Positions 4,085 through 25,089 of a stretch of 43,874 nucleotides of DNA are shown here, in pieces. The stretch lies in the NCBI GenBank assembly GCA_903864435.1, contig CAIPFY010000358.1, forward strand, positions 1-43,874, in the 5' to 3' direction. The first letter of the stretch is position 1. Each line of letters begins with the position of its first letter. The stretch is from an uncultured Chloroflexota bacterium. GTDB lineage: Bacteria; Chloroflexota; Anaerolineae; Aggregatilineales; Phototrophicaceae. A program made the translations under genes and the position numbers. A model generated the notes under the pieces. It saw nothing but the letters and a program-made list of their open reading frames with translations, had not been told where the DNA came from and did not search any database.

Positions 4085-5095
4085 CTAGCCTATTTCGGAC
4101 AGCTTGACAGGACGGCCTTCCAGATACGACTTCTTGGCAGCCAACCCCATGACGACGGGCGCACGACCATCGGCACCGGTCACGGTGAGGGGCTTGTCGT
4201 TCACCACCGACTCCACGAAGTCACGCAGTTCGGACTCGTAGGAGTAGGTGTAGCGTTCCATGAAGAAGTTCAGCGGCAGATCGCGGCGGACGTTCTGCGC
4301 GGTGCTGATGGTGGCGGCGTTCGGGTACAGGTTGTCAGTCATGATTGCGCCGCCGCTACCGAAGGCTTCCACGCGCTGATCGTAGCCGTAGACCGCCTTA
4401 CGGCTGTTGTCAATGCTGACGGTGACTCCGTTGGCGAACTTCATTACGATGAAAGCGGTATCCACATCACCGGCTTCACCGATGGCGGGGTCAACCTTGA
4501 CACCGGCGACGGTGTAGACTTCCACCGCGTCGCTGCCCGTGAGGAAACGCGCCATGTCGAAGTCATGAATGGTCATGTCGAGGAAGATGCCGCCGGACAC
4601 CTTGATATAGCTGACGGGGGGCGGACCGGGGTCACGGCTGATGATGTGTAACATGTGCAGTTCGCCGATTTCCTGCGAGACGATGGCCTGCCGCACGCGG
4701 GCATAGTTGGGGTCGAAACGGCGGTTGAAGCCGATTTGCAGCTTCACGCCCGCTTTACGCACGCTCTCTAGCGCCTCGTCAATGCGGTTCAGGTCAAAAT
4801 CAATCGGCTTTTCGCAGAAAATGTGCTTGCCGGCTGCCGCTGCTTCACGGATGATCTGCGAGTGGGTGTTGGTGGCGGAGCAAATGGCGACGGCTTGTAC
4901 CGCAGGGTCGGCCAGCAGTTCGCGGTAGTCGGCACTAACTTTGGGGATGTGTAGTTTGGCGGCCACATCCTGCGCGGCGGTAGCCACCACGTCCGCGATG
5001 CCGATGACTTCCGCGCCGGGGATGCGGGTGACAAGGTTTTCCGCGTGTACTTTGCCGATACGTCCCGCGCCAATCACTGCAAATTTCAATGTCAT
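4085..5095 (-). CDS. iolG: Inositol 2-dehydrogenase (IolG family)
   Basis: Oxidises myo-inositol to 2-keto-myo-inositol with NAD+, the first step of inositol catabolism. The 336-residue protein has an N-terminal Rossmann motif GAGRIG (9-14), EKP with K96, and D173/H177 in FLDMTIHDFD. These match the Lys-Asp-His catalytic set of the GFO/IDH/MocA inositol dehydrogenases. It is the last gene of an iolB-iolD-iolG run, 19 bases after iolD, with AAAGG before the ATG. GFO/IDH proteins are hard to separate by substrate; the call rests largely on the iol neighbours. Confidence 0.88.
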   Translation of the reverse strand: MTLKFAVIGAGRIGKVHAENLVTRIPGAEVIGIADVVATAAQDVAAKLHIPKVSADYRELLADPAVQAVAICSATNTHSQIIREAAAAGKHIFCEKPIDFDLNRIDEALESVRKAGVKLQIGFNRRFDPNYARVRQAIVSQEIGELHMLHIISRDPGPPPVSYIKVSGGIFLDMTIHDFDMARFLTGSDAVEVYTVAGVKVDPAIGEAGDVDTAFIVMKFANGVTVSIDNSRKAVYGYDQRVEAFGSGGAIMTDNLYPNAATISTAQNVRRDLPLNFFMERYTYSYESELRDFVESVVNDKPLTVTGADGRAPVVMGLAAKKSYLEGRPVKLSEIG

Positions 5096-5114
5096 GTTTG
5101 CGACCTTTCCTCAG

Positions 5115-6974
5115 TTAGTAGTAACGTTGTTTGTTTCTAGCTTCATCATACTTGCGGCGGGCATCTTGTACAGACGGGTTTTCCGAGACTTCGGCAACCG
5201 CCACATCCCACCATGATTCGTAGCCGCCCACGCGCTGACTGCGGTCAGTTTCGATGAAGATGCACACGGTTTCGGATGAAGCCTGCGCCTGCTGGAGCGC
5301 GGTTGCCAGTTCGTCTTTGTTGGCGGCGCGGATGAGCTTTGCGCCCAGACTGGCGGCGTTCGCGCCCAAGTCCAGCGGCAACGTTTCGCCATCCAACTGA
5401 CCGGAGTCGGTGCGGAAGCGGTATTTGGTGCCGAAGCCGTCGCTGCCAACCGATTTCGATAGGCCGCCGATGCTGGCGTAGCCGTGATTATCCAGAATGA
5501 TAATCACCAGCTTCACGCCTTCCTGTACGGCGGTCACGATTTCGGAGGACATCATCAGGTAGGAAGCGTCTCCCACCATGACATAGACTTCGCGGGCAGG
5601 GTCGGCCATTTTTGCGCCTAGCCCACCAGCAATCTCATAGCCCATTGTGGAGTAGCCGTATTCCAGATGGTAGCCGCCGGGGCTGCGGGTGCGCCACAGT
5701 TTATGCAAGTCACCGGGGAGGCTGCCCGCCGCGCACAGCACAATGTCGTTGGGGCGCGAGAGGGTGTTGACCGCGCCGATGACCACGCCCTGACTCATGA
5801 GGGGGCCGTGTTCCAGATCATAGATGCGCTGCACTTCGGCATCCCAGTCGGCATTGAAGGCGGCGGCACGGGTGCGGTATTCGCTGGCGACTTCGTAGCC
5901 TGCAATGAGCGTGCTGAGTTCATCTAGAATGGCACGGGCGTCGCCCACCAGCGGCAGCGCGTGATGTTTGTAGGCATCGAACTCCGCCACGTTGATGTTG
6001 ATGAACTTGAGGTTAGGATTCTGGAAGGCAGTTTTGGAGGCGGTGGTGAAATCGCTGTAGCGCGTTCCAATGCCGATAATCAGGTCGGCTTCACGGGCGA
6101 TGATATTGGCTCCGGCTGTGCCTGTCGCGCCGATTGCGCCCAGATTCAGCGGGTGGTTATAGGGCAGCGAACCTTTGCCGGCCATCGTTTCGCCCATCGG
6201 AATGCCTGTGCGTTCCACGAAAGCGGCGAGCGCGGCGGTGGCTTCGCTGTACAGCACGCCACCCCCCGCCACGATGATCGGGCGACGACTGGCGCGTATC
6301 CACTCGGCGGCGCGGTTCAGGCTGTCCACATCCGGGCGCGGGCGCGGGATGTGCCAGATGCGCGGTTCGAGGAAATCATCGGGATAGTCGAAGGCCATTG
6401 CCTGTACATCCTGTGGCAGCGACAGAGTGACCGCGCCGGTTTCGGCGGGGGATGTGAGGACGCGCATCACTTCCGGCAAGGCGGTGATGATCTGTTCGGG
6501 GCGGTTGATGCGATCCCAGTAGCGTGATACCGGCTTGAAGCAGTCGTTTACCGAAATATCCTGCGAATGCTCGGATTCAAGCTGTTGCAGCACAGGTGCT
6601 TGTAGGCGCTGGGCGAAAATGTCGCCGGGGAGCAGCAGCACGGGCAAGCGGTTGATGGTGGCGGCAGCTGCGCCAGTGAGCATGTTGGTCGCGCCGGGGC
6701 CAATCGAGGAGGTGCAGGCGAAGGCTTGCAGGCGGTTCTTGACTTTGGCGAAGGCGGCGGCGCTGTGTACCATCGCCTGTTCGTTGCGAACCTGATAGTA
6801 GCGGAAACGATCCGCATACTGCTGTAGCGCCTGCCCGATGCCCGCCACGTTGCCATGACCGAAGATGCCCCAGCAGCCTGCGAAGAACGGTTGCTGATGA
6901 CCGTCACGCTCGACCTGCTGGTTGGAGAGGTAGTGAATGATGGCCTGCGCCATCGTCAAACGGGTTGTTTTCAT
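5115..6974 (-). CDS. iolD: 3D-(3,5/4)-trihydroxycyclohexane-1,2-dione hydrolase
   Basis: Thiamine-diphosphate enzyme that opens the cyclohexane ring to give 5-deoxy-glucuronate. At 619 residues it has the family's normal length. Near the N-terminus GCWGIFGHGNVAG is characteristic of IolD, E65 in VRNEQAMVHSA is the TPP-activating glutamate, and the C-terminal TPP motif runs from GDASY (468) to DNHGYASIGG (495-504). AAGGA precedes the ATG. It follows iolB by 52 bases and precedes iolG by 19. IolC, IolE and an inositol transporter are not in the window, so the rest of the pathway must be elsewhere. Confidence 0.95.
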   Translation of the reverse strand: MKTTRLTMAQAIIHYLSNQQVERDGHQQPFFAGCWGIFGHGNVAGIGQALQQYADRFRYYQVRNEQAMVHSAAAFAKVKNRLQAFACTSSIGPGATNMLTGAAAATINRLPVLLLPGDIFAQRLQAPVLQQLESEHSQDISVNDCFKPVSRYWDRINRPEQIITALPEVMRVLTSPAETGAVTLSLPQDVQAMAFDYPDDFLEPRIWHIPRPRPDVDSLNRAAEWIRASRRPIIVAGGGVLYSEATAALAAFVERTGIPMGETMAGKGSLPYNHPLNLGAIGATGTAGANIIAREADLIIGIGTRYSDFTTASKTAFQNPNLKFININVAEFDAYKHHALPLVGDARAILDELSTLIAGYEVASEYRTRAAAFNADWDAEVQRIYDLEHGPLMSQGVVIGAVNTLSRPNDIVLCAAGSLPGDLHKLWRTRSPGGYHLEYGYSTMGYEIAGGLGAKMADPAREVYVMVGDASYLMMSSEIVTAVQEGVKLVIIILDNHGYASIGGLSKSVGSDGFGTKYRFRTDSGQLDGETLPLDLGANAASLGAKLIRAANKDELATALQQAQASSETVCIFIETDRSQRVGGYESWWDVAVAEVSENPSVQDARRKYDEARNKQRYY

Positions 6975-7026
6975 GAGGATTCCTTCGCGTATGCTCGTAA
7001 AGCGTGCTGAACGGATGCGGGTGCAG

Positions 7027-7893
7027 CTATTTGACGATGGGCAGGCGCGGGTCTAAGCCTGTCCATGTGGATTTGACCCATGCGAAATCGGGGTCGTCCA
7101 CATTGGCGAGGGACTGCGCCGAACCCGCCAGCGCGTTCAGGTAGTAAGTGGTGTAGCCGTAAGCGCCGACGACGGGGTGATAGCCTTCCGGCACGAGGAT
7201 GGTGTCGTGGTCACGCGCCATCATGAGCGCATCAATGCGGCCATCGGTGGTGTATACGCGCTGATAGGCGAAACCTTCGGGGCGGTCAAATTTGTAGAAA
7301 TAGATTTCTTCGAGGTCGGCTTCCAGCAGTTTGCCATCGGCATCCACGCGATGCACATCATGCTTGTGCGGGGGGTAGCTCGACCAGTTGCCACCGGGCG
7401 TATAGACTTCCACCAGCACGAGGCGCTGGCATTCAAACCCCGGCGGTAGGATGCTGTTGATCTGACGCGAGGCGTTGTTGCCGCCACGCAGTTCGACGGC
7501 GCTGGTTTCGGGGGTGACAATGCGGGCGGGAAAATCCTGATCGCTCGGCACCCAAGACGAGGCAATTTCGAGGCCGTCACTGGTGGCTTCAATCTCGAAA
7601 GAGGTGTGGCGCGGCAGGTAAACGGCGTAGGGTTTGCCGGCGAAGACGTTGGGGCGGCGGCCTATGTTAAGGAAGTCCCCGGCACTGCTGCGGATGTGCG
7701 CTGTGCCACCGAGGATGACATGACCGTATTCAAAGTCGCCCGTTTCGGAAGCCCAACGCTGTCCTTTGTTGAAGCGGCGTGCTTCAAAGTTCAGGTATTC
7801 CCACCCCGCCTGCTGCGGCGTGACTGAAGCAAAAACGCCCGTTTCACCTTTGTCCGTTGAACGGAGGAGCATAGTGTCGGCGGTGTAACGCAT
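7027..7893 (-). CDS. iolB: 5-deoxy-glucuronate isomerase
   Basis: Isomerises 5-deoxy-glucuronate to 2-deoxy-5-keto-gluconate, the step after IolD. The bicupin protein of 288 residues shows the second-cupin metal motif PPHKHD (174-179) followed by EEIYFYKF (195-202). I chose ATG 7893, which has AAGGA six bases upstream. An in-frame ATG at 7920 lacks a ribosome site and lies only about seven bases after the start of transcription implied by the TATAAT at 7934-7939. First gene of the iolBDG operon and divergent from argG. Confidence 0.93.
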   Translation of the reverse strand: MRYTADTMLLRSTDKGETGVFASVTPQQAGWEYLNFEARRFNKGQRWASETGDFEYGHVILGGTAHIRSSAGDFLNIGRRPNVFAGKPYAVYLPRHTSFEIEATSDGLEIASSWVPSDQDFPARIVTPETSAVELRGGNNASRQINSILPPGFECQRLVLVEVYTPGGNWSSYPPHKHDVHRVDADGKLLEADLEEIYFYKFDRPEGFAYQRVYTTDGRIDALMMARDHDTILVPEGYHPVVGAYGYTTYYLNALAGSAQSLANVDDPDFAWVKSTWTGLDPRLPIVK

Positions 7894-7933
7894 AGGCGAT
7901 CCTTTTGTGGAATAGGTCATGAAAGATCAAGAG

Positions 7934-10866: not shown

Positions 10867-10895
10867 TTGACAACTTCCATGATCGTCGTTACGCT
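10867..10895 (+). promoter_or_regulatory. Candidate promoter of the ilv-leu leader
   Basis: Perfect -35 box TTGACA (10867-10872), exactly 17 bases, then TACGCT (10890-10895) as a poor -10. Transcription would begin near 10902, about 29 bases before the leader peptide GTG. Confidence 0.6.
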
Positions 10896-10930
10896 ATCTT
10901 CCATTGAGTTTGTTCAAGGTTTTACAAATC

Positions 10931-10999
10931 GTGCATTCCGTTCGCAACCTCGTACTTAGCCTGATTAGCATTGTAATCCTCCTTACGGGTGGGTTATAA
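10931..10999 (+). CDS. ilv-leu leader peptide, 22 codons, rich in Leu/Ile/Val
   Basis: Short frame GTG to TAA. Residues 7-18 read LVLSLISIVILL, and 12 of the 22 codons encode branched-chain residues: six Leu, three Ile and three Val. AAGG lies 11 bases before the GTG. It is followed immediately by a competing antiterminator/terminator pair and then by ilvE. This is the layout of ribosome-stalling attenuation known from enterobacterial ilv and leu operons. Shortage of any of the three charged tRNAs would stall the ribosome within the run and favour read-through. No homology to a named leader is claimed; the call rests on composition, position and the paired RNA structures. Confidence 0.8.
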   Translation: MHSVRNLVLSLISIVILLTGGL

Positions 11000-11000
11000 C

Positions 11001-11065
11001 GGCTTGGGCGGTTGCGGACAGTCAAATGTTAAGCACAAAGCCCCCAAGCTGGGGGCTTTTTGTTT
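11001..11065 (+). terminator. ilv-leu attenuator: antiterminator plus intrinsic terminator 1
   Basis: Terminator: AAAGCCCCC (11037-11045), loop AAGCT, GGGGGCTTT (11051-11059), then more T. Antiterminator: GGCTTGGG (11001-11008) can pair with CCCAAGCT (11043-11050), which takes up part of the terminator 5' arm and all of its loop. The 11001 arm begins one base after the leader stop codon at 10997-10999, so a ribosome finishing the peptide would cover it and let the terminator form, while one stalled at the Leu/Ile/Val run would leave it free. Confidence 0.8.
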
Positions 11066-11080
11066 GAGGGTGAATCCGGT

Positions 11081-11209
11081 ATGTGTACACAGTGGGCAAC
11101 AACTTTTAACCAGCGCCGCGCCAGTCGAATGACGCAGACGATGGCCTGTGCCATGCCTGCTTACCCTCAGTACCATTTATGGACTGAAGAAGCGCCTTCC
11201 ACCGCCTAA
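11081..11209 (+). CDS. Possible second leader ORF, 42 codons
   Basis: ATG 11081 to TAA 11207-11209, with GAGGGTG about eight bases upstream. It fills the space between terminator 1 and terminator 2. The predicted peptide (starts MCTQWATTF, ends EEAPSTA) is not rich in branched-chain residues, resembles nothing I know, and may not be translated. Its stop codon lies in the loop of terminator 2, seven bases past that hairpin's 5' arm, so a ribosome terminating here would mask that arm and prevent termination. Function is unproven. Confidence 0.3.
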   Translation: MCTQWATTFNQRRASRMTQTMACAMPAYPQYHLWTEEAPSTA

Positions 11210-11245
11210 CTGTTTGTTGGGCAATTGACCGGAAGGCGTTTTTTT
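11193..11245 (+). terminator. Terminator 2 directly upstream of ilvE
   Basis: CGCCTTCC (11193-11200) pairs with GGAAGGCG (11231-11238), followed by seven T. A smaller inner stem, GCCTAAC with GTTGGGC, can form inside the loop. It sits between the attenuator and the ilvE ribosome site GAGGAG, so transcripts that escape terminator 1 must also pass it. Confidence 0.82.
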
Positions 11246-11270: not shown

Positions 11271-12191
11271 ATGACGGCTGAGTGGATATGGAAGAATGGT
11301 GAACTGGTGGCGTGGCAGGATGCCACCGTGCATGTTACGGCACATGCGCTGCACTATGGTTCGAGCGTGTTTGAGGGGGTACGGGCGTATGCCACGCCGC
11401 AGGGGCCGGCGCTGTTCCGGTTGGAACCGCACACCCGCCGCCTGCTGAATTCCGCGAAGATCGCCCGGATGCAGGTTCCCTATACTGCCGAACAGATTAA
11501 TGAGGCCATTATTGAAACCATCCGCCGGAATGGACACGAGTCCTGCTATGTGCGTCCGCTGCTGTATCGCGGGGCGAAAAAGCTGGGCGTGGAAGGCCGT
11601 GAAAACCCCACCGAACTCGTGATTATCACGATGGAATGGGGTCGCTATCTGGGCGCGGAAGCGATTGAGCAGGGCGTGGATGTTCAGGTGAGTTCGTGGC
11701 GGCGCATGGCACCGGATACGGGCGCGTCGCTGGCGAAGATCGGCGGTCAGTATGTGAATAGCCAGCTTATCAGCATGGAAGCGCATGATAACGGCTTTAG
11801 TGAAGGTATCGCGCTGGATTATTCCGGCTCTGTGAGCGAAGGCGCGGGCGAAAATATTTTTGTGGTTCTGAACGGTGTGGTGTATACGCCGGGTGTGGGA
11901 TCGTCTGTCCTGATGGGCATCACGCGGGATAGTGTGATTACGCTGCTGAAGGAACAGGGGCGCGACGTGCGCTTCGAGACGATTTCACGCGATATGCTGT
12001 ACATCGCGGATGAAATCTTCATGACCGGAACTGCCGCCGAGATTACGCCGGTGCGTTCGGTAGATCGGCTGCCGGTGGGCGCAGGTAAGCGAGGCCCGGT
12101 GACGACTGCGGTTCAGGAAGAATTCTTTGCGCTTACGTCCGGTCAGAAATCGGATCGTCATGGTTGGCTGACGCCGGTGCGTCCGGCATAG
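11271..12191 (+). CDS. ilvE: Branched-chain amino acid aminotransferase
   Basis: PLP fold-type IV enzyme that performs the last transamination to Leu, Ile and Val. The 306-residue protein has HALHYGSSVFEGVRAY near 25-40, the PLP lysine K156 in SLAKIGGQYVNS, and the conserved EGAGENIF and MTGTAAEITPV stretches of IlvE. ATG 11271 has GAGGAG seven bases upstream; a frame start at 11256 would overlap that site. It is the first structural gene of the supercluster, behind the attenuated leader, and is followed 50 bases later by ilvB. Confidence 0.96.
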   Translation: MTAEWIWKNGELVAWQDATVHVTAHALHYGSSVFEGVRAYATPQGPALFRLEPHTRRLLNSAKIARMQVPYTAEQINEAIIETIRRNGHESCYVRPLLYRGAKKLGVEGRENPTELVIITMEWGRYLGAEAIEQGVDVQVSSWRRMAPDTGASLAKIGGQYVNSQLISMEAHDNGFSEGIALDYSGSVSEGAGENIFVVLNGVVYTPGVGSSVLMGITRDSVITLLKEQGRDVRFETISRDMLYIADEIFMTGTAAEITPVRSVDRLPVGAGKRGPVTTAVQEEFFALTSGQKSDRHGWLTPVRPA

Positions 12192-12241: not shown

Positions 12242-13945
12242 ATGTTACTCAGTGGTTCAGAAATCGTGATGGAATGCCTGCTGCGGGAAGGCGTGGATGT
12301 TATTTTCGGTTATCCGGGTGGCGCGATCCTGCCCACTTATGATGCGATGACCAAATACCCGCAAATCCGGCACGTTCTGGTGCGCCATGAGCAGGGTGCG
12401 GCGCACATGGCAGATGGTTATGCACGGGCGACCGGGCGCGTGGGCGTGGCGATTGCCACCAGCGGCCCCGGCGCGACCAATTTGGTGACGGGTATCGCCA
12501 CCGCCATGATGGACTCGTCGCCGATGGTGTGCATCACGGGTCAGGTGCCGCGTGGCACGATTGGTTCGGATGCGTTTCAGGAGTGCGACATTACCGGTAT
12601 CACCATTCCGGTGACGAAGCACAACTATCTGGTGGCTGATGTGCGTGAACTGCCGCATATTATGCGCGAGGCGTTCCATATCGCCCGCACAGGCCGTCCG
12701 GGGCCGGTGTTAATTGACATTCCGAAAGATGTGCAGAACGAGAAGATTGAATTTGTGTATCCAGAAGGCGAAATCAAGCTGCCGGGATACCGTCCGCCCT
12801 CAATCGCTTCGGATGAAGAACTGTCGGCGGCGCTGGAACTGATCCGCAACGCAAAACGCCCGATGATTCTGGCTGGACATGGCATTATGATGTCCGGTGC
12901 GTCGCAGGAATTGCGCGAACTTTCGGAACGGGCGCAGATTCCGGTGAGCCTGACGCTGCTGGGCAAAGGCGCGATGCCGGAAAACCACCCGCTGGTGGTT
13001 GGCATGATGGGGATGCACGGCGCGGCGGCCTGCAACTATGGTATTCAGGAAGCCGACCTGCTGATTGCGCTGGGGATGCGTTTTGATGACCGTGAGACCG
13101 GCAACGTCAAGACCTATTCGCCCAACTCCAAGAAGATACACATTGATATTGATCCCTCCGAGATCAACAAGAACATCAGCGTGGATGTGGGGATCGCCGG
13201 TGATTTGCGGATGGTTCTCTCGCAGATGCTACCTTCAGTTCCTAGCCAGCAGCATCCCGAATGGATTGCGCGCATCCGCGATTGGCAGGAAGACGGCGAC
13301 GAGCGCGACATTGTGCATCATGAAACGACCGGTAAACTGCTGGGCGCGCAGGTGATTAACGACCTGTGGAAGGCGACCGGCGGTGATGCGCTGACCGTGA
13401 GCGACGTGGGACAGCACCAGATGTTGGAAGCGCAGTATTACCCGCACCAGCGTCCGCACACCATGCTCACCAGCGGCGGCCTCGGCACGATGGGCTTTGG
13501 CCTGCCAGCGGCTATCGGCGCGAAGTTTGGCAAGCCGGACGAAGAAGTGTGGGCGATTGTGGGCGATGGTGGTTTCCAGATGACGATGTGCGAACTGGCG
13601 ACTGCCAAGCAGGAAAATGTGAAAGTGAACATCGTCATCCTGAACAATGAATATCTGGGTATGGTGCGCCAGTGGCAGGAGTTCTTCTACGAGGAACGGT
13701 ACCATGCCACGCCGATGTTCAGCCCGGATTTCGTGAAACTGGCGGCTGCTTATGACATTCCGGCGATGCGTGTGACAAGCCGTGACCAGATTGAGGAATC
13801 GGTGAAGTTTGCCCGCAGTCATGAAGGCCCGGTTTTGATCGAGTATGTGATCGAGAAGGAAGAAATTGTGTATCCGATGGTTCCGGCAGGTGCGGATCTG
13901 CACGCGATGCTGCGGCGTCCGAAGCCGGGTGAAGGGACGAAATAA
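12242..13945 (+). CDS. ilvB: Acetolactate synthase, large catalytic subunit
   Basis: TPP/FAD enzyme that condenses two pyruvates to acetolactate, or pyruvate with 2-oxobutyrate to acetohydroxybutyrate. The 568-residue protein carries VIFGYPGGAILP (about 20-31), the TPP glutamate E50 in VRHEQGAAHMADGYARA, and the TPP/Mg motif from GDGG (441) to NNEYLGMVRQWQ (468 on). ATG 12242 has AAGGAG eight bases upstream; a TTG six bases earlier is too close to that site. The small subunit follows after two bases, consistent with an obligate pair. Confidence 0.97.
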   Translation: MLLSGSEIVMECLLREGVDVIFGYPGGAILPTYDAMTKYPQIRHVLVRHEQGAAHMADGYARATGRVGVAIATSGPGATNLVTGIATAMMDSSPMVCITGQVPRGTIGSDAFQECDITGITIPVTKHNYLVADVRELPHIMREAFHIARTGRPGPVLIDIPKDVQNEKIEFVYPEGEIKLPGYRPPSIASDEELSAALELIRNAKRPMILAGHGIMMSGASQELRELSERAQIPVSLTLLGKGAMPENHPLVVGMMGMHGAAACNYGIQEADLLIALGMRFDDRETGNVKTYSPNSKKIHIDIDPSEINKNISVDVGIAGDLRMVLSQMLPSVPSQQHPEWIARIRDWQEDGDERDIVHHETTGKLLGAQVINDLWKATGGDALTVSDVGQHQMLEAQYYPHQRPHTMLTSGGLGTMGFGLPAAIGAKFGKPDEEVWAIVGDGGFQMTMCELATAKQENVKVNIVILNNEYLGMVRQWQEFFYEERYHATPMFSPDFVKLAAAYDIPAMRVTSRDQIEESVKFARSHEGPVLIEYVIEKEEIVYPMVPAGADLHAMLRRPKPGEGTK

Positions 13946-13947
13946 TC

Positions 13948-14517
13948 ATGCCCAATAGCCTGAAGCAAACTCTAGTGGCACTGGTGGAGAACAAGCCGGG
14001 CGTGTTGAACCGCGTTGCCAGCCTGCTGCGCCGCCGTAATTTCAACGTGGACAGCCTGACAGTGGGGCGCACGCACAGCCCGCATATCTCGCGCATGACG
14101 ATTGTGGTGGATGCGGAGAAGGCGAACGGATGGCGTATTGCCTCCAATTTGGTCAAGCTGGTGAATGTGATTGATGTGAAGCTGGTTTCGGAAGAGCCGC
14201 ATATCAGCCGCGATATGGCGCTGATTAAGGTGCGGACAGACGATACCGATTCGCGCAATAATGTGACGCTGATCTGCGAACGCTATCCGGCGCGTATTGT
14301 GGACATCGGCATGAAGGTGGCGATTGTGGAAATTGCCGCGCAGGAAGACATTGTGGAAGCTCTGATTCACGAACTGGAACCGATTGGGATCGTGGAGATG
14401 GTGCGTACCGGCGTGGTAGCGATGGGGCGTGGCGTTCGTATTCTGGATGCGGAAGATTACGAACCGCTGATGAATACGCCGAACCCCAACGGCGATTATC
14501 AGGTGTATGGAGTTTAA
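13948..14517 (+). CDS. ilvN: Acetolactate synthase, small regulatory subunit
   Basis: ACT-domain partner of IlvB that boosts activity and confers feedback inhibition, typically by valine. The 189-residue length is that of a full IlvH/IlvN type. The N-terminal ACT domain reads LVENKPGVLNRVASLLRRRNFNVDSLTVG, given here from residue 11, with the effector-site glycine and following loop intact; a second ACT-like domain starts near residue 85 (ALIKVRTDD). The start ATG follows the ilvB stop by two bases, so translational coupling is likely. Confidence 0.95.
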   Translation: MPNSLKQTLVALVENKPGVLNRVASLLRRRNFNVDSLTVGRTHSPHISRMTIVVDAEKANGWRIASNLVKLVNVIDVKLVSEEPHISRDMALIKVRTDDTDSRNNVTLICERYPARIVDIGMKVAIVEIAAQEDIVEALIHELEPIGIVEMVRTGVVAMGRGVRILDAEDYEPLMNTPNPNGDYQVYGV

Positions 14518-14612
14518 CCCGTGCGGGCGTGAATGCCCCCGGTTGAAACTAAGGCAGTCATTCAACAAGAGATGGGCTGAGCGCCCCTGTATCATTGGAG
14601 CAAAAGAGAGAT

Positions 14613-15635
14613 ATGGCAACGTTGTATTACGATAAAGACGCGGATCTGTCGCTGCTGAACGGCAAGACGATTGCTGTGATCGGCTATGGCAGTCAGGGAC
14701 ACGCCCATGCGCTGAACGCGAAGGACAGCGGCATGAAGGTCATTGTGGGCCTGCATGCGGGCAGCAAGAGCGCCGAAAAAGCGAAGGCGGATGGGCTGGA
14801 AGTGTTTTCGGTAGCGGATGCGACCAAGCAGGCTGATGTGGTGATGGTACTCATCCCGGACACCAAGCAAGCCTCGGTATACGCTTCGGACATTGGCCCG
14901 AACCTGAAGGACGGGGCGATGCTGATGTTCGCGCACGGCTTCAACATTCACTTTGGCGAGATTAAGCCGCCGACGACAGTGGATGTGACGATGGTCGCGC
15001 CCAAGTCGCCCGGCCACCGCGTCCGCGAAGTGTTCAAGGAAGGCGCGGGTACGCCCGGTCTGGTGGCGGTTCAGCAGGATGCGAGTGGCAAGGCGAAGGC
15101 GCTGGCGCTGGCGTATGCGTGTGCCATCGGTTGCACCCGTGCCGGCGTGATCGAAACCACGTTCAAGGAAGAAACTGAAACCGACCTGTTCGGCGAACAG
15201 ACCATCCTGTGCGGCGGCGTGACGGCGCTGGTACGTGCGGCGTTTGAAACGCTGGTGAAGGCTGGCTATCAGCCGGAAGTGGCCTATTTCGAGTGCATGC
15301 ACGAACTGAAGCTGATCGTTGACCTGATGTATCAGGGCGGCCTGAGCTACATGTGGTACAGCGTGAGCGATACCGCTGAATATGGCGGGTATGTGGTTGG
15401 TGATCTGGTCGAGGGGCTGGTGAAGGAAGAATTCCAGGGCGTTCTGACCCGCATTCAGGATGGCACGTTCGCCCGTGAATGGATTGGCGAGAACAAGAAT
15501 GGTCGCCCGAACTTCACCCCGCGTCGCCAGAAGGAACAGACTCTGCTGATCGAAACGGTCGGCGCTGATCTGCGTGACATGATGACGTTCCTGAATGCCA
15601 AGCGCATTAAGCAGGATTTGCACAGCGGCGGGTAG
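14613..15635 (+). CDS. ilvC: Ketol-acid reductoisomerase (class I)
   Basis: Isomerises and reduces acetolactate or acetohydroxybutyrate to the dihydroxy acid using NAD(P)H and Mg2+. The 340-residue protein has [17 protein letters not shown] at 24-40, HGFNIHFG for the active site, and the metal-binding D190 and E194 in [14 protein letters not shown]. These define the short class I enzyme. ATG 14613 gives the standard [14 protein letters not shown]-terminus; a TTG 18 bases earlier is less likely. The next pathway enzyme, dihydroxy-acid dehydratase (ilvD), is not in the window. Confidence 0.97.
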
Positions 15636-15674
15636 TGGTTTCGATTGGTTCAACCCGAGAAAGGGGGTGATCGT

Positions 15675-15773
15675 ATGCCTGAAGATGATCTTAGCGACCT
15701 TCAGTCTCATCCGTTTTGTCGTGCGTTGATGTCTCAACAGGAAGGATCACCCAAAAATGTCTGCACAGATTGA
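15675..15773 (+). CDS. Possible small ORF (32 codons) overlapping the leuA start
   Basis: ATG 15675 to TGA 15771-15773; the last 17 bases overlap leuA in another frame. Its ribosome site, AGAAAGGGGGTGATC, is one mismatch from the full complement of a typical 16S rRNA 3' end and is far stronger than that of leuA. GGGTGATC (15665-15672) within that site can pair with GATCACCC (15745-15752) just before the leuA ATG. The peptide (starts [10 protein letters not shown]) has only three Leu and resembles nothing I recognise. It may act in cis, coupling leuA translation to its own. Confidence 0.4.
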
Positions 15774-17373
15774 TCACAACCGTGTATTTGTTTTTGATAC
15801 CACGCTGCGCGACGGAGAACAAAGCCCCGGCGCGACACTAACGAGCGCCGAAAAGCTGGAAATCGCCCGACAGTTAGCGCGGTTGGGCGTGGACATCATC
15901 GAAGCCGGTTTCCCGGCTGCTTCCCCGGACGATCTGGCGGCGGTGCAGCGCATCGCCCGCGAGGTGGGTACGGCGGATGGGCCGGTGATCTGCGGGTTGG
16001 CGCGTGCGGTGGAGCGCGATATTCGGACTTGCTGGGAAGGCGTGAAGGATGCGGCGAAACCGCGCATTCACACCTTCCTCGGCACGTCGGATATTCACCT
16101 GAAGTATCAGACGGGAATCACCCGCGAACAGGCGTTGGATGTTATCCGCAAGTCGGTCACACTGGCGCGTAGCCTGTGTCCCGATGTGGAATTCAGCCCG
16201 ATGGACGCGGGGCGTACCGATCCGCAGTTTCTGGTTGAAGTGTGTGCGCTGGCAGTCGAATGCGGCGCGACCACGCTCAACATCCCCGATACGGTGGGTT
16301 ATGTGACTCCGGCGGAGTGGGGTGAAACGATCGCCAGCCTGATCGCTGAAACCCCCGGCGCGGGGCCAGGCAGCGGCGTGGTCTGGTCGGTACACTGCCA
16401 TAATGATCTCGGTCTGGCGACGGCAAACTCGCTGGCTGGCATCATGGGCGGGGCGCGGCAGGTGGAAGTGACGATCAACGGGATTGGCGAACGCGCCGGC
16501 AACACCAGCCTCGAAGAAGTGGTGATGGCGCTACAGACTCGCTCGAAATACTATGATCTGCACACCCAGATCAATACCCGCGAAATCATGAAAACTAGCC
16601 GACTGGTGAGCAACTACACTGGCATGAACGTTCAGCCTAACAAGGCGGTCGTGGGTGCAAATGCTTTTGCTCATGAAGCCGGTATCCATCAGGACGGGGT
16701 GCTGAAGAACGCCAGCACGTATGAGATTATGACCCCCGACAGTGTGGGGTTGACCCAGAGCCGTCTGGTGCTGGGCAAGCACAGCGGACGCCACGCTTTG
16801 AAAGCCCGTTTGAGTGAGCTGGGCTACAACGTGGAAGGGGATGCGCTTAATCAGGTGTTCGCCCGTTTCAAGGACTTGGCAGATGCCAAGAAAACGGTCA
16901 CGGATGCCGATCTGGAAGCGTTAATTGCGGACGAATTTCATGGGCCGGAAGACCTGTACAGCCTTGAAGCGGTACAAGTGACGTGCGGTACAATGGGGAT
17001 GCCCACCGCAACGGCAAGACTGCACCACACCAGCACTGGCGAAACCTTCGTGTATGCCGCAGTGGGGACGGGGCCGGTGGATGCTTGCTATAAAGCGGTG
17101 GATGCCATTGTGAAAGCGCCGAACACGCTGATCGAATACAGCGTCCACAGCGTCACCGAAGGCATTGACGCGCTGGGTGAGGTAACGGTACGTATCTCGC
17201 CGAGCGCCGATGATAAGCGTTCGTTTGGCGGGTATGGCGCAGATCGAGATGTGGTGGTCGCCAGCGTGAAAGCGTATCTGGCGGCTGTGAATCGCATGGT
17301 TGCAGTGATGGGGCTGGCCGGACAGAAGCCCGAAGGGGATTCGGCTACGGTTGGCGTTCAGCACGCGGAATAA
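15757..17373 (+). CDS. leuA: 2-isopropylmalate synthase
   Basis: Condenses 2-oxoisovalerate with acetyl-CoA, the committed step of leucine synthesis. The 538-residue protein opens with [21 protein letters not shown] (catalytic TIM barrel), has the metal-binding HCHND at 213-217 and [13 protein letters not shown]. It ends with the C-terminal LeuA regulatory domain (from about residue 400) that usually binds leucine, so feedback inhibition is expected. AGGAAGG lies upstream of the ATG but with wide spacing, so the overlapping upstream frame may help initiation. Distinct from the CimA paralogue 3.8 kb downstream. Confidence 0.96.
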
Positions 17374-17389
17374 TTTGACGTTGTGTTCG

Positions 17390-17418
17390 CCGGGGGCGCT
17401 GCAAAAAGTGACCCCCGG
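17390..17418 (+). other. Stem-loop between leuA and leuC
   Basis: CCGGGGG (17390-17396) pairs with CCCCCGG (17412-17418) across a 15-base loop. No T tract follows, so it is not a normal terminator; it may stabilise mRNA ends between leuA and leuC. Confidence 0.5.
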
Positions 17419-17451
17419 TGTTCGTGATAGCCGATATGGGATAAGGATCGT

Positions 17452-18894
17452 ATGTCAACACAAGTATCTAGCAGCAGCCCACGCACGTTGTTCGACAAGG
17501 TGTGGAGCAATCATATTGTTCGTCCACAGACACCGGATACTCCGGCTGTGCTGTACATTGACCTGCATCTGGTTCATGAAGTTACGTCTCCGCAGGCGTT
17601 TTCGGTGCTGCGCGAACGCGGCCTGAAGGTGCGCCGTCCGGATCGCACGATGGCGACGATGGATCACAGCACGCCGACGACGCCGCGCAACGCTGAAGGC
17701 ATCATTCCGGTGACGGATGCGATGGCTTCGGCGCAGTTGGATGTGATGCGCAAAAACTGCGCGGACTTTGGTATCCCACTTTATGATCTGGGAACCGCGA
17801 AACAAGGCATCGTGCATGTGATCGGGCCGGAGCAGGGGTTCACCCAGCCGGGTATGACGATTGTGTGCGGCGACAGCCATACCAGCACGCACGGCGCGTT
17901 CGGTGCGCTGGCTTTTGGCATCGGCACAAGTGAAGTGTCACATGTGCTGGCAACCCAGTGCTTGCTCCAGAATCGCCCGCAGACGATGGCGGTGCGCGTA
18001 GATGGTCGCTTGCGCGCGGGCGTGACTGCGAAGGACATCATTCTGGCGATCATCGCCAAGATTGGTGTGGGCGGCGGCACGGGCTATGTGTTCGAGTATA
18101 TGGGCGAGGCGATCCGTGCGTTGAGCATGGAAGGCCGTATGACCATTTGCAATATGTCTATCGAAGGTGGCGCACGGGCGGGTATGGTCGCTCCTGATGA
18201 TATCACCTTCAACTACGTGGCAGGCCGTCCGGCTGCGCCGAAGGGTGCAGATTGGGATCAGGCGGTAGCCGCATGGCGCACGCTGCCCACTGACGAGGGT
18301 GCGACCTTCGACAACGAAGTGGTGTTGGACGCGAATACGTTGACGCCGATGATTACCTACGGGACAAATCCCGGCATGGGCATGGCGATCAATGCGAATG
18401 TGCCTGACCCCGATAAACTGAGCGATGTGAGTCAGAAGATGGCGCTGGATAAGGCGCTGAAGTATATGGCGCTGCAACCCGGTCAGAAACTGCTGGGCAA
18501 GCCGGTGGATGTGGTGTTCATCGGAAGCTGCACCAATTCGCGCATCACCGATTTGCGGGAAGCCGCCAAGTTCATTCAGGGGCGCAAGGTGGCTGATAAT
18601 GTGCGCGTGATGGTGGTTCCGGGTTCGCAACTGGTGAAGGTGCAGGCCGAAGCCGAAGGGCTGGACAAGATTTTCCGCGAGGCGGGTGCGGAATGGCGCG
18701 AGGCCGGATGCTCGATGTGCATCGCCATGAACGGCGATCAGCTTCAGCCGGGGCAGTACGCGGTGAGTACCAGCAACCGCAACTTTGAAGGCCGGCAGGG
18801 TAAGGGTGGACGCACGTTCCTCGCCAGCCCGCTGACCGCCGCAGCCACAGCCGTGACGGGGGTTATCACTGACCCGCGAGAGATGGTGAACTAA
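17452..18894 (+). CDS. leuC: 3-isopropylmalate/citramalate dehydratase, large subunit
   Basis: Aconitase-family subunit with a [4Fe-4S] cluster, isomerising 2- to 3-isopropylmalate, and very likely citramalate to methylmalate for the CimA route. The 480-residue protein has [31 protein letters not shown] and cluster ligands C360 (GSCTNSR), C420 and C423 (CSMC). Its small subunit starts one base after the stop. The length matches the bacterial LeuC type rather than the shorter archaeal HacA type. Confidence 0.96.
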
Positions 18895-18895
18895 G

Positions 18896-19504
18896 ATGGA
18901 ACCGATCAAGACATTTTCTGGAACGATGGTTCCGCTGCCGAACAATGATATTGACACCGACCAGATCATTCCGGCGCGTTACCTGAAAGTGACCGATAAG
19001 AACGGTCTGGGCGCGGCCTGCTTCTCGGACTGGCGTTATAACTCCGATGGATCGCCCAAGCCGGAATTTCCGCTGAATCAGCCGCAGTATCAAGGCGCGG
19101 CGGTACTGATTGGCGGGCACAACTTCGGGTGCGGGAGTTCGCGTGAACATGCGCCGTGGGCGCTGGTGGGCGCGGGCTTTAAGGCCGTTGTGAGTACCTA
19201 TTTTGCCGACATCTTCAATGGCAACGCACTGAAGAATGGTCTGCTGCCGATTGTGGTGGATGCCGAAACCCATCAGCAGTTGATTAGTTTGTCGTCGGAA
19301 GACCCCAATGCAGAGGTTAGCGTGAATCTGGAAGATCAGACGCTGACTCTGCCGGATGGTCGCGCTGTGAAATTCCCTGTTGACCCGTTCTCGCGCTACT
19401 GCCTGTTGAACGGTGTGGATCAGCTGGGATTTCTCTTTGGCCTTGATAGCACAATCAACCAGTATGAACAAGCAAATCCGGCGCGTGTGATGACATCCGC
19501 CTGA
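18896..19504 (+). CDS. leuD: 3-isopropylmalate/citramalate dehydratase, small subunit
   Basis: Swivelling-domain partner of LeuC. The 202-residue protein shows NNDIDTDQIIPARYLK near the N-terminus and the substrate loop GHNFGCGSSREHAPWAL in the middle, both hallmarks of LeuD. Its ATG is one base past the leuC stop, so the two subunits should be made together. cimA follows after 15 bases with AAGGAG. Confidence 0.96.
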   Translation: MEPIKTFSGTMVPLPNNDIDTDQIIPARYLKVTDKNGLGAACFSDWRYNSDGSPKPEFPLNQPQYQGAAVLIGGHNFGCGSSREHAPWALVGAGFKAVVSTYFADIFNGNALKNGLLPIVVDAETHQQLISLSSEDPNAEVSVNLEDQTLTLPDGRAVKFPVDPFSRYCLLNGVDQLGFLFGLDSTINQYEQANPARVMTSA

Positions 19505-19519
19505 TAAGGAGCTGTACTC

Positions 19520-21109
19520 ATGAATGTTGCCATCTACGATACCACTCTGCGTGATGGCACGCAGCGCGAGGGCATCTCGCTCTCGGTTGCCGACAAGATC
19601 AAGATCGCTAAGTTGCTCGATCAGTTCGGCGTTGCTTACATCGAAGGCGGTTGGCCGGGGTCAAACCCGAAGGATGCCGCTTTTTTCGAGGCGGCCAAAA
19701 CCCTTGACTTGCAGCACGCCAAGATTGCGGCTTTCGGTTCCACCTGCCGGAAGGAAAGCGACCCGGCTAGTGACCCGAACATCATGGCGCTGGTAGATGC
19801 GCAGACGCCGGTGGTGACGGTGGTGGGCAAGACTTCGATGCTGCACGTCAAAGATGTGCTGCAAACTACCCCTGAAGAAAACCTGCGTATGATCCGCGAG
19901 AGTTTGCGTTACCTGAAAAGCCTCGGCAAAGAAGTCATCTACGATGCCGAACACTTTTTTGACGGGATCAAGCTGGACATGGAATACGCGCTGGATACCA
20001 TCGAAGCGGCGGTAGAAGGCGGCGCGGATTCGGTTGTGCTGTGCGATACCAACGGCGGTTCGCTGCCGTGGGAAATCACACATTTCGTCAACGCGGTGAA
20101 GGACTCTTTCCCGTCTGTGTCCATCGGTATTCACACGCATAACGATGGCGAGCTGGCGGTGGCGAACACGCTGGCGGCAGTACAGGCCGGTGCGACGCAG
20201 GTGCAGGGGACGATCAACGGGTACGGGGAACGCTGCGGGAATGCCAATTTGTGCAGTATCATCCCTGATCTTGAACTGAAGATGGGCTACAAATGCTTGC
20301 CGGAACCGGCTCATTTGCGGCATCTGACCACACTTTCGCGCACAGTGGCGGAGATTGCCAACCTGTCGCCGGATAACCATCTGGCGTATGTGGGCAAGAG
20401 CGCCTTTGCGCATAAGGGCGGCATTCATGTGGCGGCCATTCGCCGGAATGTGGATAGTTACCAGCATATTGACCCGTCGCGGGTGGGCAATGAGATGCGT
20501 GTGCTGGTTTCCGACCTGTCGGGGCAGGGCAACCTGTTGAGCAAGGCGGAAGAATTCGGGATGGATGTTTCCCGTGATGAGGCGCTGCGCGTGCTGGACG
20601 AGGTGAAGCGGTTGGAAAATGAAGGCTTCGTGTTTGAAGGCGCAGAGGCTTCGGTGGCGATTCGCTTGCATCGTTCCAAACCGGGTTATAAGCCGATTTT
20701 CAGCCTGATTGATTTCACGGTGATGGTGGCTGAACGGGATGGGCATCAGGTGTCGCAGGCGATGGTGAAGTTGGATGTGGAAGGCGACATCGTGCATACC
20801 GCTGCGGAAGGGAACGGGCCGGTGAACGCGCTCGATCTCGCGCTGCGGAAGGCGCTGCTGCCGCGTTACCCGCAACTGGCGGATTTCCAACTGGCGGATT
20901 ACAAGGTGCGTATCCCCGATGGCAACAACGGCACGGCGGCGACCACGCGGGTTTTGATTGACACGCAGATGGGGACGCAGCGTTGGAGTACAGTCGGTGC
21001 TGGCACGAATATCATCCAGTCTAGCTGGTTGGCGCTGGTCGATTCGGTGGAATACGGGATTGCGCTAGGTAAGCCCGAACCGATAGCTGACGCAGGGGCT
21101 TCCGACTAG
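19520..21109 (+). CDS. cimA: (R)-citramalate synthase
   Basis: Condenses pyruvate and acetyl-CoA to citramalate, which LeuCD and LeuB turn into 2-oxobutyrate for isoleucine without threonine deaminase. The 529-residue protein has YDTTLRDGTQREGISLS at the N-terminus, where the TQ-REG variant and IEGGWPGSNPKD separate CimA/LeuA2 from true LeuA. HTHND is the metal site, and a C-terminal LeuA-type regulatory domain is present. The location between leuD and leuB fits a shared enzyme set. Homocitrate synthase is excluded by the neighbourhood and by these motifs. Confidence 0.93.
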   Translation: MNVAIYDTTLRDGTQREGISLSVADKIKIAKLLDQFGVAYIEGGWPGSNPKDAAFFEAAKTLDLQHAKIAAFGSTCRKESDPASDPNIMALVDAQTPVVTVVGKTSMLHVKDVLQTTPEENLRMIRESLRYLKSLGKEVIYDAEHFFDGIKLDMEYALDTIEAAVEGGADSVVLCDTNGGSLPWEITHFVNAVKDSFPSVSIGIHTHNDGELAVANTLAAVQAGATQVQGTINGYGERCGNANLCSIIPDLELKMGYKCLPEPAHLRHLTTLSRTVAEIANLSPDNHLAYVGKSAFAHKGGIHVAAIRRNVDSYQHIDPSRVGNEMRVLVSDLSGQGNLLSKAEEFGMDVSRDEALRVLDEVKRLENEGFVFEGAEASVAIRLHRSKPGYKPIFSLIDFTVMVAERDGHQVSQAMVKLDVEGDIVHTAAEGNGPVNALDLALRKALLPRYPQLADFQLADYKVRIPDGNNGTAATTRVLIDTQMGTQRWSTVGAGTNIIQSSWLALVDSVEYGIALGKPEPIADAGASD

Positions 21110-21163
21110 CATGTTTTGAGGGTGGCGTGAGAAAAGCCACGCGCACACCCATTCAGGATCATT

Positions 21164-21190
21164 ACGGGCTGGTCTACTCCAGCCCGTTTT
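21164..21190 (+). terminator. Intrinsic terminator between cimA and leuB
   Basis: ACGGGCTGG (21164-21172), loop TCTACT, CCAGCCCGT (21179-21187) and T to 21190. A weaker stem, GGGTGGCGTG with CCACGC and CACCC, precedes it (about 21120-21150). leuB, 19 bases away, would therefore be reached only by read-through. A 22-codon GTG frame (21127-21195) crosses this hairpin and stops on the leuB ribosome site. Confidence 0.8.
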
Positions 21191-21208
21191 CATGAGGAGA
21201 ATGCAGAG

Positions 21209-22270
21209 ATGAAAGCTACGATTACCGTATTGCCGGGTGACGGCATCGGCCCGGAAGTAACCTCACAGGCGGTGGAGGTTCTTTCAAAGGTCGCGTCCAA
21301 GTTCGGGCATGAGTTCGCCTTTAACGAGGCGCTGATGGGCGGTTGCGCGATTGACCAGACGGGCAGCGCGTTGCCGGATGAAACCATTCGCACGGCTGAA
21401 AGCAGCGATGCGATTCTGCTGGGCGCGGTGGGTGGGCCGAAGTGGTCAGACCCGACGGCGAAGGTGCGCCCGGAGGATGGGCTGCTCAAGATTCGCAAGC
21501 ATTTTGACCTGTTCGCCAACCTGCGTCCGGTGAAAGCGTATCCGGCGCTGGCACAGCACACCCCTCTGCGGCCTGACCTGCTGGAGAATGTGGATATGCT
21601 GTTCGTGCGCGAACTGACCGGTGGGATTTACTTTGGCCCGCGTCAGGAGCAGGGCGATGGCGATAGCGCCTATGATACCGAGCTGTACACCACGCCGGAG
21701 GTGGAACGTGTGGCGCATGTGGCCTTCCGCGCTGCACAGGGGCGGCGCGGTAAGTTAGCATCGGTGGATAAGGCGAACGTGATGGCGAGTATGCGCCTGT
21801 GGCGGCGCACGGTGGTGCGTGTTCATGAGGATTATCAGGATGTGGCGCTAGAGCATGTGCTGGTGGATGCCTGCGCGATGTACCTGATGACCCGTCCGGC
21901 GAGTTTCGATGTGCTGGTTGCCCCGAATATGTTCGGTGACATCCTGAGCGACGAGGCGTCGGTGCTGGCGGGTTCGCTGGGGATGCTGCCCTCGGCTTCG
22001 CTGGGTTCGGCTAAGTTCGGCCTGTATGAGCCGATTCACGGTTCAGCGCCGGACATTGCCGGACAGGGCAAGGCCAACCCGACAGGCACGATTTTGAGCG
22101 CGGCGCTGCTGCTGCGCTACAGCCTCGGACTGGAACAGGAAGCGCAGGCGGTGGAACGGGCTGTCGAAGCGGCGCTGGCTTCGGGCGCACGCACAGCGGA
22201 TATTGCGCCGCGTGGTGGCAGTTTCACCAGCACTACCGAGTTCACGCAGACGATTCTGGGCGCACTCTAG
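21209..22270 (+). CDS. leuB: 3-isopropylmalate dehydrogenase
   Basis: NAD-dependent oxidative decarboxylation of 3-isopropylmalate, and probably of 3-methylmalate made by the CimA route. The 353-residue protein begins [21 protein letters not shown], has the [12 protein letters not shown] substrate loop with R and E conserved, [12 protein letters not shown] with the Mg-binding aspartates, and [14 protein letters not shown] for NAD binding. GAGGAG is nine bases upstream. It closes the BCAA supercluster and is followed by a hairpin. Confidence 0.96.
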
Positions 22271-24846: not shown

Positions 24847-24949
24847 CTCTTATGAAGAGCGGTTGAGGGAACGGCCCTTTGAAACCGCGGCAACCTCCAC
24901 TTTGTGGGAAGGTGCCAAGTCCGTCGGCAGTATTGCTGGCAGATAAGAG
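24847..24949 (+). ncRNA. SAM-I (S-box) riboswitch aptamer
   Basis: P1 is CTCTTAT (24847-24853) with ATAAGAG (24943-24949). Between them are the S-box landmarks GAAGAGCGGTTGAGGG, GGCCC-TTTGAAACCGCGGCAACC and GGTGCCAAGTCC in the expected order, so the core binds S-adenosylmethionine. Two terminators follow, so SAM should switch transcription off. It controls the cystathionine gamma-synthase gene. The CGCCTGA / TCAGGTG stem downstream of P1, extended by AGAG/CTCT, may be part of the antiterminator, but the exact switch is not resolved. Confidence 0.95.
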
Positions 24950-25057: not shown

Positions 25058-25089
25058 ATTGTGAGGTCTTGTTCACAGGAGGAAATGCG

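Follow-up and report, generated by a model that had tools for sequence, protein, structure and literature searches.

How is the transcription of a cluster of branched-chain amino acid genes controlled by the sequence in front of it? The window, which is the whole 43,874-nucleotide stretch of Chloroflexota DNA that was analysed, carries ilvE at positions 11271–12191 of the plus strand (TIGR01122, 406.8 bits, above the cut-off). This is the first gene of a presumably controlled cluster, and it is followed on the same strand by ilvB, ilvN, ilvC, leuA, leuC, leuD, cimA and leuB (12242–22270, assigned with NCBIfam). Co-transcription of ilvE with the downstream ilv–leu genes is presumed. The upstream gene argH lies on the same strand and ends at 10793. 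The cimA gene (19520–21109; TIGR00977, 691.5 bits) encodes citramalate synthase, and its location inside the ilv–leu cluster implies that isoleucine is probably made from pyruvate.

An initial annotation of this DNA had placed a leader peptide with a mutually exclusive antiterminator and terminator in front of ilvE and had let the regulatory region end at 11065. Comparison with related loci supports the attenuator. The extent given to the region was incomplete, as a second open reading frame, ORF2, and a second terminator, T2, between 11066 and ilvE were overlooked. We propose that two translation-read attenuators of opposite sign quite probably stand in series before ilvE. The anatomy of the region, its conservation, the exclusion of certain codons from one frame and the point at which this exclusion ends are supported by comparing sequences.

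A match to ilvE was found in 97 of the 98 genomes of the family, the genome of the window included, and up to 900 nt upstream of ilvE were read in 90 of them. The eight genomes left out (G010, G020, G021, G022, G023, G041, G045 and G097) had no hit or a partial, more distant or paralogous ilvE. The locus of G097 (L258) contains the leader frame ORF1, and ORF2 and T2 are seen there by eye. The named records nearest to the locus are mostly metagenome-assembled genomes titled Anaerolineae or Chloroflexi. The family loci are related and no tree stands behind the counts given below, which are hence not counts of independent events.

Promoter and Leader Peptide

The putative leader promoter (10867–10895, plus strand) consists of a TTGACA box at 10867–10872 and a −10-like TACGCT box at 10890–10895, spaced by exactly 17 nt. 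A generic promoter scan of the window found no promoter and thus left this pair unreported. The boxes recur in the relatives. TTGAC is present at most 130 nt 5′ of the leader in 88/88 loci; shuffles average 10.6 and never exceed 22. Among the 85 rows of sufficient length, the pattern TANNCT at a distance of 17 nt shows T in 96%, A in 96%, C in 81% and T in 96%.

Downstream of these boxes, the plus-strand frame ORF1 (10931–10999) encodes the leader peptide MHSVRNLVLSLISIVILLTGGL. It starts with GTG and comprises 22 codons followed by the stop. Twelve Leu/Ile/Val codons follow the start, ten of them at residues 7–18; ten such residues in 12 were reached in 1 of 1000 Markov-1 copies of the window's 600 nt. 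A frame of this type, with at least nine Leu/Ile/Val in 12 residues, was found in 88 of the 90 family loci versus 8/1800 controls, which were 20 Markov copies of each of the 90 upstream regions. It is absent from L020, where the contig ends 366 nt upstream, and from L089. The latter locus (genome G095) has ilvE with no branched-chain ORF upstream and is the sole assessable family locus without a leader.

The 88 leaders contain 442 Leu, 383 Ile and 331 Val codons. Counted from the stop, Leu/Ile/Val codons occupy 656 of 704 positions at codons −12 to −5, 49 of 88 at codon −4 and 6 of 88 at each of codons −3 and −2, two positions often taken by Gly, Ser or Asn. The last sense codon is again Leu/Ile/Val in 62/88 leaders, for which the stall model offers no explanation. 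Most of the Leu codons of the leaders (361/442) are CTT or CTC; at the start of ilvE (up to 79 first codons), CTT and CTC make up 16% of the Leu codons and CTG 53%. Elf is said to have described selective charging of isoacceptors in 2003. The CTT/CTC preference could fit such charging, and constraints on the RNA could also cause it.

Antiterminator and First Terminator

The 5′ strand of the antiterminator, GGCTTGGGCGG (11001–11011, plus strand), begins one base past the ORF1 stop and is conserved in position and sequence, with compensatory changes. Its 3′ strand, GCCCCCAAGCT (11040–11050, plus strand), is common to the 5′ arm and the loop of the first intrinsic terminator, T1, so the core GGCTTGGG at 11001–11008 faces CCCAAGCT at 11043–11050 within T1. 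T1 itself (11037–11065, plus strand), recognized by reading the sequence and by a per-locus search, has the form AAAGCCCCC-AAGCT-GGGGGCTTT followed by a T tract.

The family loci were aligned from the ORF1 stop through T1 (alignment A1). A few bases from the ORF1 stop, GGCTTGGG or a variant of it is found; in L025, L027 and L037 the strand lies inside ORF1. The antiterminator helix is paired in 90.9% of the cells. Changes on both sides of a pair occur in 24 cells, a number reached in 0/500 shuffles, and in 6/10 pairs, reached in 4/500 shuffles. All measures drop when the partner strand is slid by one to three columns. Relatedness alone can beat shuffles without any structure, and the variety of the changes therefore weighs more. 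TTTGGG/CCCAAA is found in L007, L046, L047 and L059, TCTTGGG/CCCAAGA in L054 and L081, and GCGGG/CCCGC in L034, L038 and L040.

For the T1 helix in A1, the share of paired cells was matched by 206/500 shuffles and the covariation score by 139/500, while 14/500 shuffles had as many cells changed on both sides; a helix shifted by −1 column scored equally well or better. The T1 counts stay mostly within the shuffles because the T1 arm is misaligned, that is, shifted, in part of the rows. The per-locus search detected a hairpin with a T tract 3′ of the ORF1 stop in 87/88 loci, and L045 has a T1-like hairpin without a T tract. A generic terminator scan found one terminator in the window against a shuffle mean of 1.1, which is no evidence in one sequence.

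A T-box or riboswitch in the leader was considered and rejected. At the gathering score, Rfam matched no amino-acid leader family, T-box or riboswitch there. The weak matches were all below threshold (Phe_leader 24.3 bits vs 55, Trp_leader 23.0 vs 41, Thr_leader 22.6 vs 55), and the T-box model RF00230 was absent. A hairpin at 11066–11168 in the fold of the window was likewise dismissed as an aptamer, as the relatives carry a coding frame there.

The description of this first module in the initial annotation largely stands. The TTGACA box, the 22-codon GTG frame and its 12 branched-chain codons, ten of them at residues 7–18, all hold at their coordinates, and the pairing of the two core strands inside the terminator is read directly from the sequence. 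An antiterminator that excludes the terminator, as annotated, and that is under selection agrees with the 24 cells changed on both sides. A codon run kept in relatives and compensatory changes in both hairpins had been named as support. The run is kept in 88/90 loci. The compensatory changes are borne out for the antiterminator; for T1, the counts in A1 mostly do not exceed the shuffles. The sensing of three amino acids by one peptide fits the mixture of Leu, Ile and Val codons in the leaders, and leader-peptide attenuation before an ilv–leu cluster outside Proteobacteria is supported by the comparison.

Second Reading Frame

Between the ORF1 stop and ilvE lie 246–422 nt in 54 of the 88 loci, namely the window locus and 53 of the other 87, and 92–198 nt in the remaining 34. 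The 34 loci with a short spacer have ORF1 and neither ORF2 nor T2, which implies that the second module is dispensable. Among the 54 loci with a long spacer, ORF2 was called in 52 and a T2 hairpin in 53; L046 (no ORF) and L082 (no T2) are excluded from the ORF2 counts. To pick the frame, its start codon, a ribosome-binding motif, proximity to T1 and overlap with the T2 arm were considered, and its composition was not used. Arm coverage is therefore a condition of the call, and the start codons are predicted (ATG in 49 and GTG in 3 of the 52). A ribosome-binding motif of at least four bases precedes 27/52 ORF2s, a count without a control. In the window, ORF2 (11081–11209, plus strand) encodes MCTQWATTFNQRRASRMTQTMACAMPAYPQYHLWTEEAPSTA, whose 42 codons include one Leu and no Ile or Val.

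Branched-chain residues are scarce in ORF2 generally. Before the T2 arm they account for 87 of 2174 residues (4.0%) over the 52 loci, compared with 22.1% of the 6727 residues in 16 proteins of the window, which served as host reference. The other two frames of the same region contain 452/2145 (21.1%) and 291/2132 (13.6%), and mononucleotide shuffles of the ORF2s gave a mean of 332.5 (sd 14.3, minimum 290 in 500). Relative to the host, Ile (0.09), Val (0.18), Leu (0.24), Gly (0.48) and Lys (0.64) are low, Gln (2.98), Cys (2.70) and His (2.02) are enriched, and Met (1.84), Trp (1.37), Ala (1.16), Tyr (1.14) and Phe (1.09) are not low. Since Met, Trp, Ala and Phe are undepleted, ORF2 avoids branched-chain rather than hydrophobic residues. 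Taken locus by locus, the depletion reaches P below 0.05 in 46/52 ORF2s.

The depletion is common to three groups of ORF2s of unlike make-up. With the last five codons ahead of the T2 arm set aside, Leu/Ile/Val amount to 17/764 in the SPWTE/SAWTE type, 13/762 in the other loci up to L050 and 13/398 in L051 and above. These groups were taken in place of identity clustering, which was discarded after it had merged 47/52 peptides into one cluster, probably through chance alignment of short biased peptides. In the 16 SPWTE-type loci, ORF2 behaves as coding sequence: the entropies at codon positions 1, 2 and 3 are 0.49, 0.44 and 1.12 in the SPWTE block and 0.33, 0.15 and 0.68 in the ALSxIYN block. 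Searches of three ORF2s against Pfam and NCBIfam gave nothing above the cut-off; what remained was a Pfam match at E 0.036 and an NCBIfam match at 0.2.

ORF2 has relatives in two further families of the order, in L153, where T2 is seen by eye, and in L162 and L165. The loci L250, L252, L254, L255 and L256 are very similar to L162 and L165, and some may come from identical genomes; L255 is richer in Val. At the place of T2, no T-run hairpin is visible by eye in L162, L165, L250, L252, L254, L255 and L256. The third locus of the L162/L165 family, L164, shows no leader. The retention of ORF2 without a visible T2 in this family suggests that the SPWTE peptide may have a function of its own, and this persistence of ORF2 relatives is the main result against a role of ORF2 purely in coupling to T2.

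Second Terminator and the Edge of the Exclusion Zone

T2 (11187–11245, plus strand) is a predicted intrinsic terminator. Its 5′ arm (11187–11200) lies in ORF2, its 3′ arm (11231–11244) ends in a T run, and the stop of ORF2 sits in the loop between them in the window. A T2 score of at least 15 was obtained in 52/54 long spacers versus 11/540 shuffles, and a score of at least 20 in 42/54 versus 0/540. The core GCGCTTTCC is often found in the 5′ arm. The T2 finder selects complementary arms, and the pair types therefore provide no independent covariation. In 31 of the 52 loci, the ORF2 stop lies in the T2 loop or at most 7 nt from the 3′ arm, and in the other 21 ORF2 continues farther. Its stop is located 2 to 80 nt upstream of the ilvE start in 45/52 and beyond this start in 7/52, at +4 in five of the seven.

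Two other readings of this module were tried and dropped. T2 is not a mobile or general element, as its exact pattern occurs in 13/98 family genomes and by coordinates lies at the ilvE leader in 11 of these. Neither does ORF2 substitute for a missing protector hairpin. The pairing of the GGCTTGGG strand with upstream RNA, computed for 85/88 loci, is no lower in long-spacer loci (mean 0.48, 53 loci) than in short-spacer loci (0.33, 32 loci).

The position of the few branched-chain codons in ORF2 is informative. Numbered from the T2 arm, codons from −50 and beyond to −31 contain 17/667 Leu/Ile/Val, codons −30 to −21 20/494 and codons −20 to −6 7/776. The proportion is 28/104 at codons −5 and −4, 23/208 at −3 to 0 and 84/306 at +1 to +6. 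The 36 ORF2s outside the SPWTE/SAWTE type have 67 branched-chain residues, of which 41 sit in the last five codons ahead of the arm (permutation mean 10.1; reached in 0/5000). The 16 SPWTE-type ORF2s show no clustering before the arm, with 3/20 in the last five codons (1432/5000 permutations as high). The distance from the A site of a ribosome to its front edge is about 12–13 nt. With the exception of the SPWTE type, the exclusion thus appears to end about five codons (15 nt) before the T2 arm, close to this distance. A ribosome waiting nearer than about five codons would keep T2 open, and a branched-chain codon there would be harmless. Such an edge has no apparent reason if ORF2 merely makes a useful peptide.

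Proposed Mechanism and Alternative Explanations

From these features we infer stalling, termination, readthrough and the logic of a gate. A ribosome lacking charged Leu, Ile or Val tRNA would stall on ORF1 four to five codons or more ahead of the stop. The GGCTTGGG strand would then stay exposed and pair, as the antiterminator, with the 5′ arm of T1, and the polymerase would pass. A ribosome that reaches the ORF1 stop would cover GGCTTGGG and let T1 form; ribosomes are described as covering up to 12 nt downstream of a stop codon in the accessible part of PMC4833913. Past T1, the polymerase would meet T2, which could not form as long as a translating ribosome covers its 5′ arm inside ORF2. Since ORF2 is nearly free of Leu/Ile/Val codons upstream of this arm, the shortage that opens T1 would not close T2. 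Where ORF2 is translated slowly or not at all, either because another amino acid is short or because translation is blocked, T2 would end transcription. The net result would be an operon that is transcribed under shortage of branched-chain amino acids, provided that the remaining translation works. On balance we favour the view that leader RNA and ribosome form a two-input gate, in which a codon-rich ORF is followed by a vetoing ORF that evolved to lack those codons by exclusion and in which the edge of the exclusion zone marks the leading edge of the ribosome.

The switch might instead consist of ORF1 and T1 alone, with ORF2 encoding a small functional protein that is produced during branched-chain shortage and hence avoids Leu/Ile/Val for economy, and T2 lowering the expression of ilvE relative to ORF2. 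At the protein level, the SPWTEAYQ and ALSxIYN motifs appear conserved, with variable third positions, and a low cognate amino acid bias is a subject treated in the literature, as far as the accessible parts of the sources go. The relatives of ORF2 in two other families of the order, in one of them without a visible T2, point in the same direction. We nevertheless consider this explanation unlikely, because unlike, motif-free peptides show the same depletion together with T2, because in the motif-free groups the depletion reaches only to about five codons from the T2 arm, and because the three ORF2s searched had no Pfam or NCBIfam match above the cut-off.

Improbable, in our judgement, is a role of ORF2 as a landing frame that passes ribosomes to ilvE by reinitiation or coupling, with T2 as a secondary feature. 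Reinitiation after leader genes has been proposed in the accessible part of PMC4833913, and the seven ORF2 stops beyond the ilvE start, five of them at +4, would suit it; the 45 stops that lie 2 to 80 nt upstream of this start do not, and the avoidance of Leu/Ile/Val and T2 would be left unexplained. TnaC is of the nascent-peptide arrest type. The conserved W and the C-terminal IYN of the SPWTE-type group recall an arrest sensor of this kind for a free metabolite, yet the other ORF2 peptides share no C-terminal residues by eye, so that such a sensor is very improbable. It is hardly credible that T1 and T2 are ordinary terminators of the transcript of argH, which ends at 10793 on the same strand, and that the ORFs arose by chance. 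The TTGAC box upstream in 88/88 loci, the presence of ORF1 in 88/90 loci versus 8/1800 controls and the covariation of the antiterminator all argue against it. Two attenuators in series stay the preferred reading of this leader.

Occurrence in the Class and Phylum

A covariance model, R1, was built from A1. It matched 76/298 genomes of the class at E 0.01; several of the loci read are hairpins without a leader, so that 76 is not a leader count. From 18 class loci (L104–L121), 14 were read, and L108, L111, L113 and L119 were too short and left out. Clear branched-chain leaders are present in L104 before leuA, in L107 before leuS, in L116 before ilvB, in L109 before a gene resembling ilvD by sight, and in L105. 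The assignments to leuS (L107) and ilvB (L116) are above the NCBIfam cut-offs. The best matches to leuA in L104 and to ilvD in L265, a locus from the wider phylum, are below the curated cut-offs, these genes being cut by the locus end. At E 0.001, R1 gave 14 matches in 201 genomes of the phylum, and nine of these loci were read. Leaders were found in L262, where a gene resembling ilvB comes next, and in L265; L263 resembles a copy of the L262 type on the reverse strand. Outside the family, 3 of 14 ilvE loci have a leader (L153, L162 and L165). Several class and phylum loci contain CTCCTT...AAGGAGC within the leader frame, possibly a pause hairpin.

Further observations concern other genes and other switches. 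In L110, L114 and L121, branched-chain-rich leaders stand before unassigned genes, which suggests that the regulon may reach beyond biosynthesis. In another family, L116, after position 1600, and L105, on the reverse strand, carry a second, T-run hairpin 3′ of a GC-rich stretch behind the leader and T1; no convincing ORF was found in this region of the two loci, and the hairpin is perhaps another kind of second switch. L112 contains at about 1440–1510 a leader-like frame, MVCGWAFSVNGTTTTSSTTCRGR, with a Thr/Ser run followed by a TTGGG/CCCAA switch, possibly a threonine leader. For trpE, which gave a hit in 96 family genomes, no Trp leader was seen in the 30 loci read. The T-box RF00230 was detected upstream of trpE in 4/4 tested loci (L123, L125, L130 and L131; 110–123 bits), and T-boxes at trpE and leader peptides at ilvE thus occur within the same family. 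Elsewhere in the window, a SAM riboswitch (RF00162, 89.5 bits) at 24847–24949 is followed at 25069 by a gene of the cystathionine gamma-synthase/methionine gamma-lyase kind, below the curated cut-offs, and the myo-inositol genes iolG, iolD and iolB lie in a row on the minus strand (4085–7920).

Comparison with Known Systems

The ilv, leu and thr operons of enterobacteria have ribosome-mediated leader-peptide attenuators. Leaders of ilvB and leuS have been predicted in Actinobacteria, according to the accessible part of PMC1262725, so that such a leader outside Proteobacteria is not new in itself. As far as these systems are described there, the locus shares with both the codon run, the terminator, the antiterminator that shares a strand with it and the cognate operon. 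It differs from them in belonging to another phylum, in the antiterminator strand directly after the leader stop and in the second module. The authors of a 2010 survey (PMC2965389, in the part available) knew, ermC aside, of no leader peptide system demonstrated beyond Proteobacteria and Actinobacteria, and they contribute a his case from Firmicutes. Later ilv work exists in Staphylococcus and Listeria, as indicated by partly available sources. The open-licence literature, judged mostly from listings, yielded no case of leader-peptide attenuation in Chloroflexi/Chloroflexota, and, judged from listings, no second leader frame defined by lacking the amino acids of the first. Chloroflexota would thereby join the phyla in which leader-peptide attenuation has been predicted for ilv, leu and leuS genes.

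The ORF1/T1 half is a classical attenuator and ordinary in kind. The ilvBNC operon of C. glutamicum is also a branched-chain operon with a terminator and an antiterminator; in the accessible part of the report it has one attenuator with three hairpins (PMC11857589), whereas an extra ORF and terminator of presumed opposite sign are present here. Leader peptides are usually studied for their abundant codons, and ORF2 is informative for its absent ones.

Among the closest parallels to ORF2/T2 is pyrL of E. coli, which answers UTP; the pyrL type of attenuator involves nucleotide-sensitive polymerase pausing in the leader. Coupled translation of the leader peptide against terminator formation is likewise needed at pyrL/pyrBI, as the accessible part of PMC5021804 describes. 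According to this source, when E. coli lacks EF-P, stalling at polyproline ahead of the pyrL terminator increases termination, although the hairpin of this reporter lowered expression about 18-fold with no stall involved. The available part of PMC4824070 describes almost complete repression of a terminator located several base pairs past the end of a gene. In 52/54 long-spacer loci, an intrinsic terminator has its 5′ arm inside a called ORF, coverage being a condition of the call. Unlike pyrL, ORF2/T2 sits behind another attenuator and has a codon make-up shaped by exclusion. Translation-dependent terminators could be searched for as ORFs that exclude the cognate amino acids until one ribosome footprint before a terminator.

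Two short ORFs and tandem attenuators in one leader mRNA are known from Salmonella mgtCBR, called a singular example in 2012 in the accessible part of PMC3641672, and the leader described here also contains two ORF–terminator pairs. In mgtCBR, as far as this source describes it, both signals raise transcription and act additively, whereas the second attenuator here is predicted to act as a veto and not to respond to the signal that the first one reads. If true, this would be an answer to the problem of keeping a starvation response amino-acid-specific, so that it does not fire when translation fails generally. ORF2/T2, if it works as its anatomy suggests, would then be a new variant, an attenuator that vetoes.
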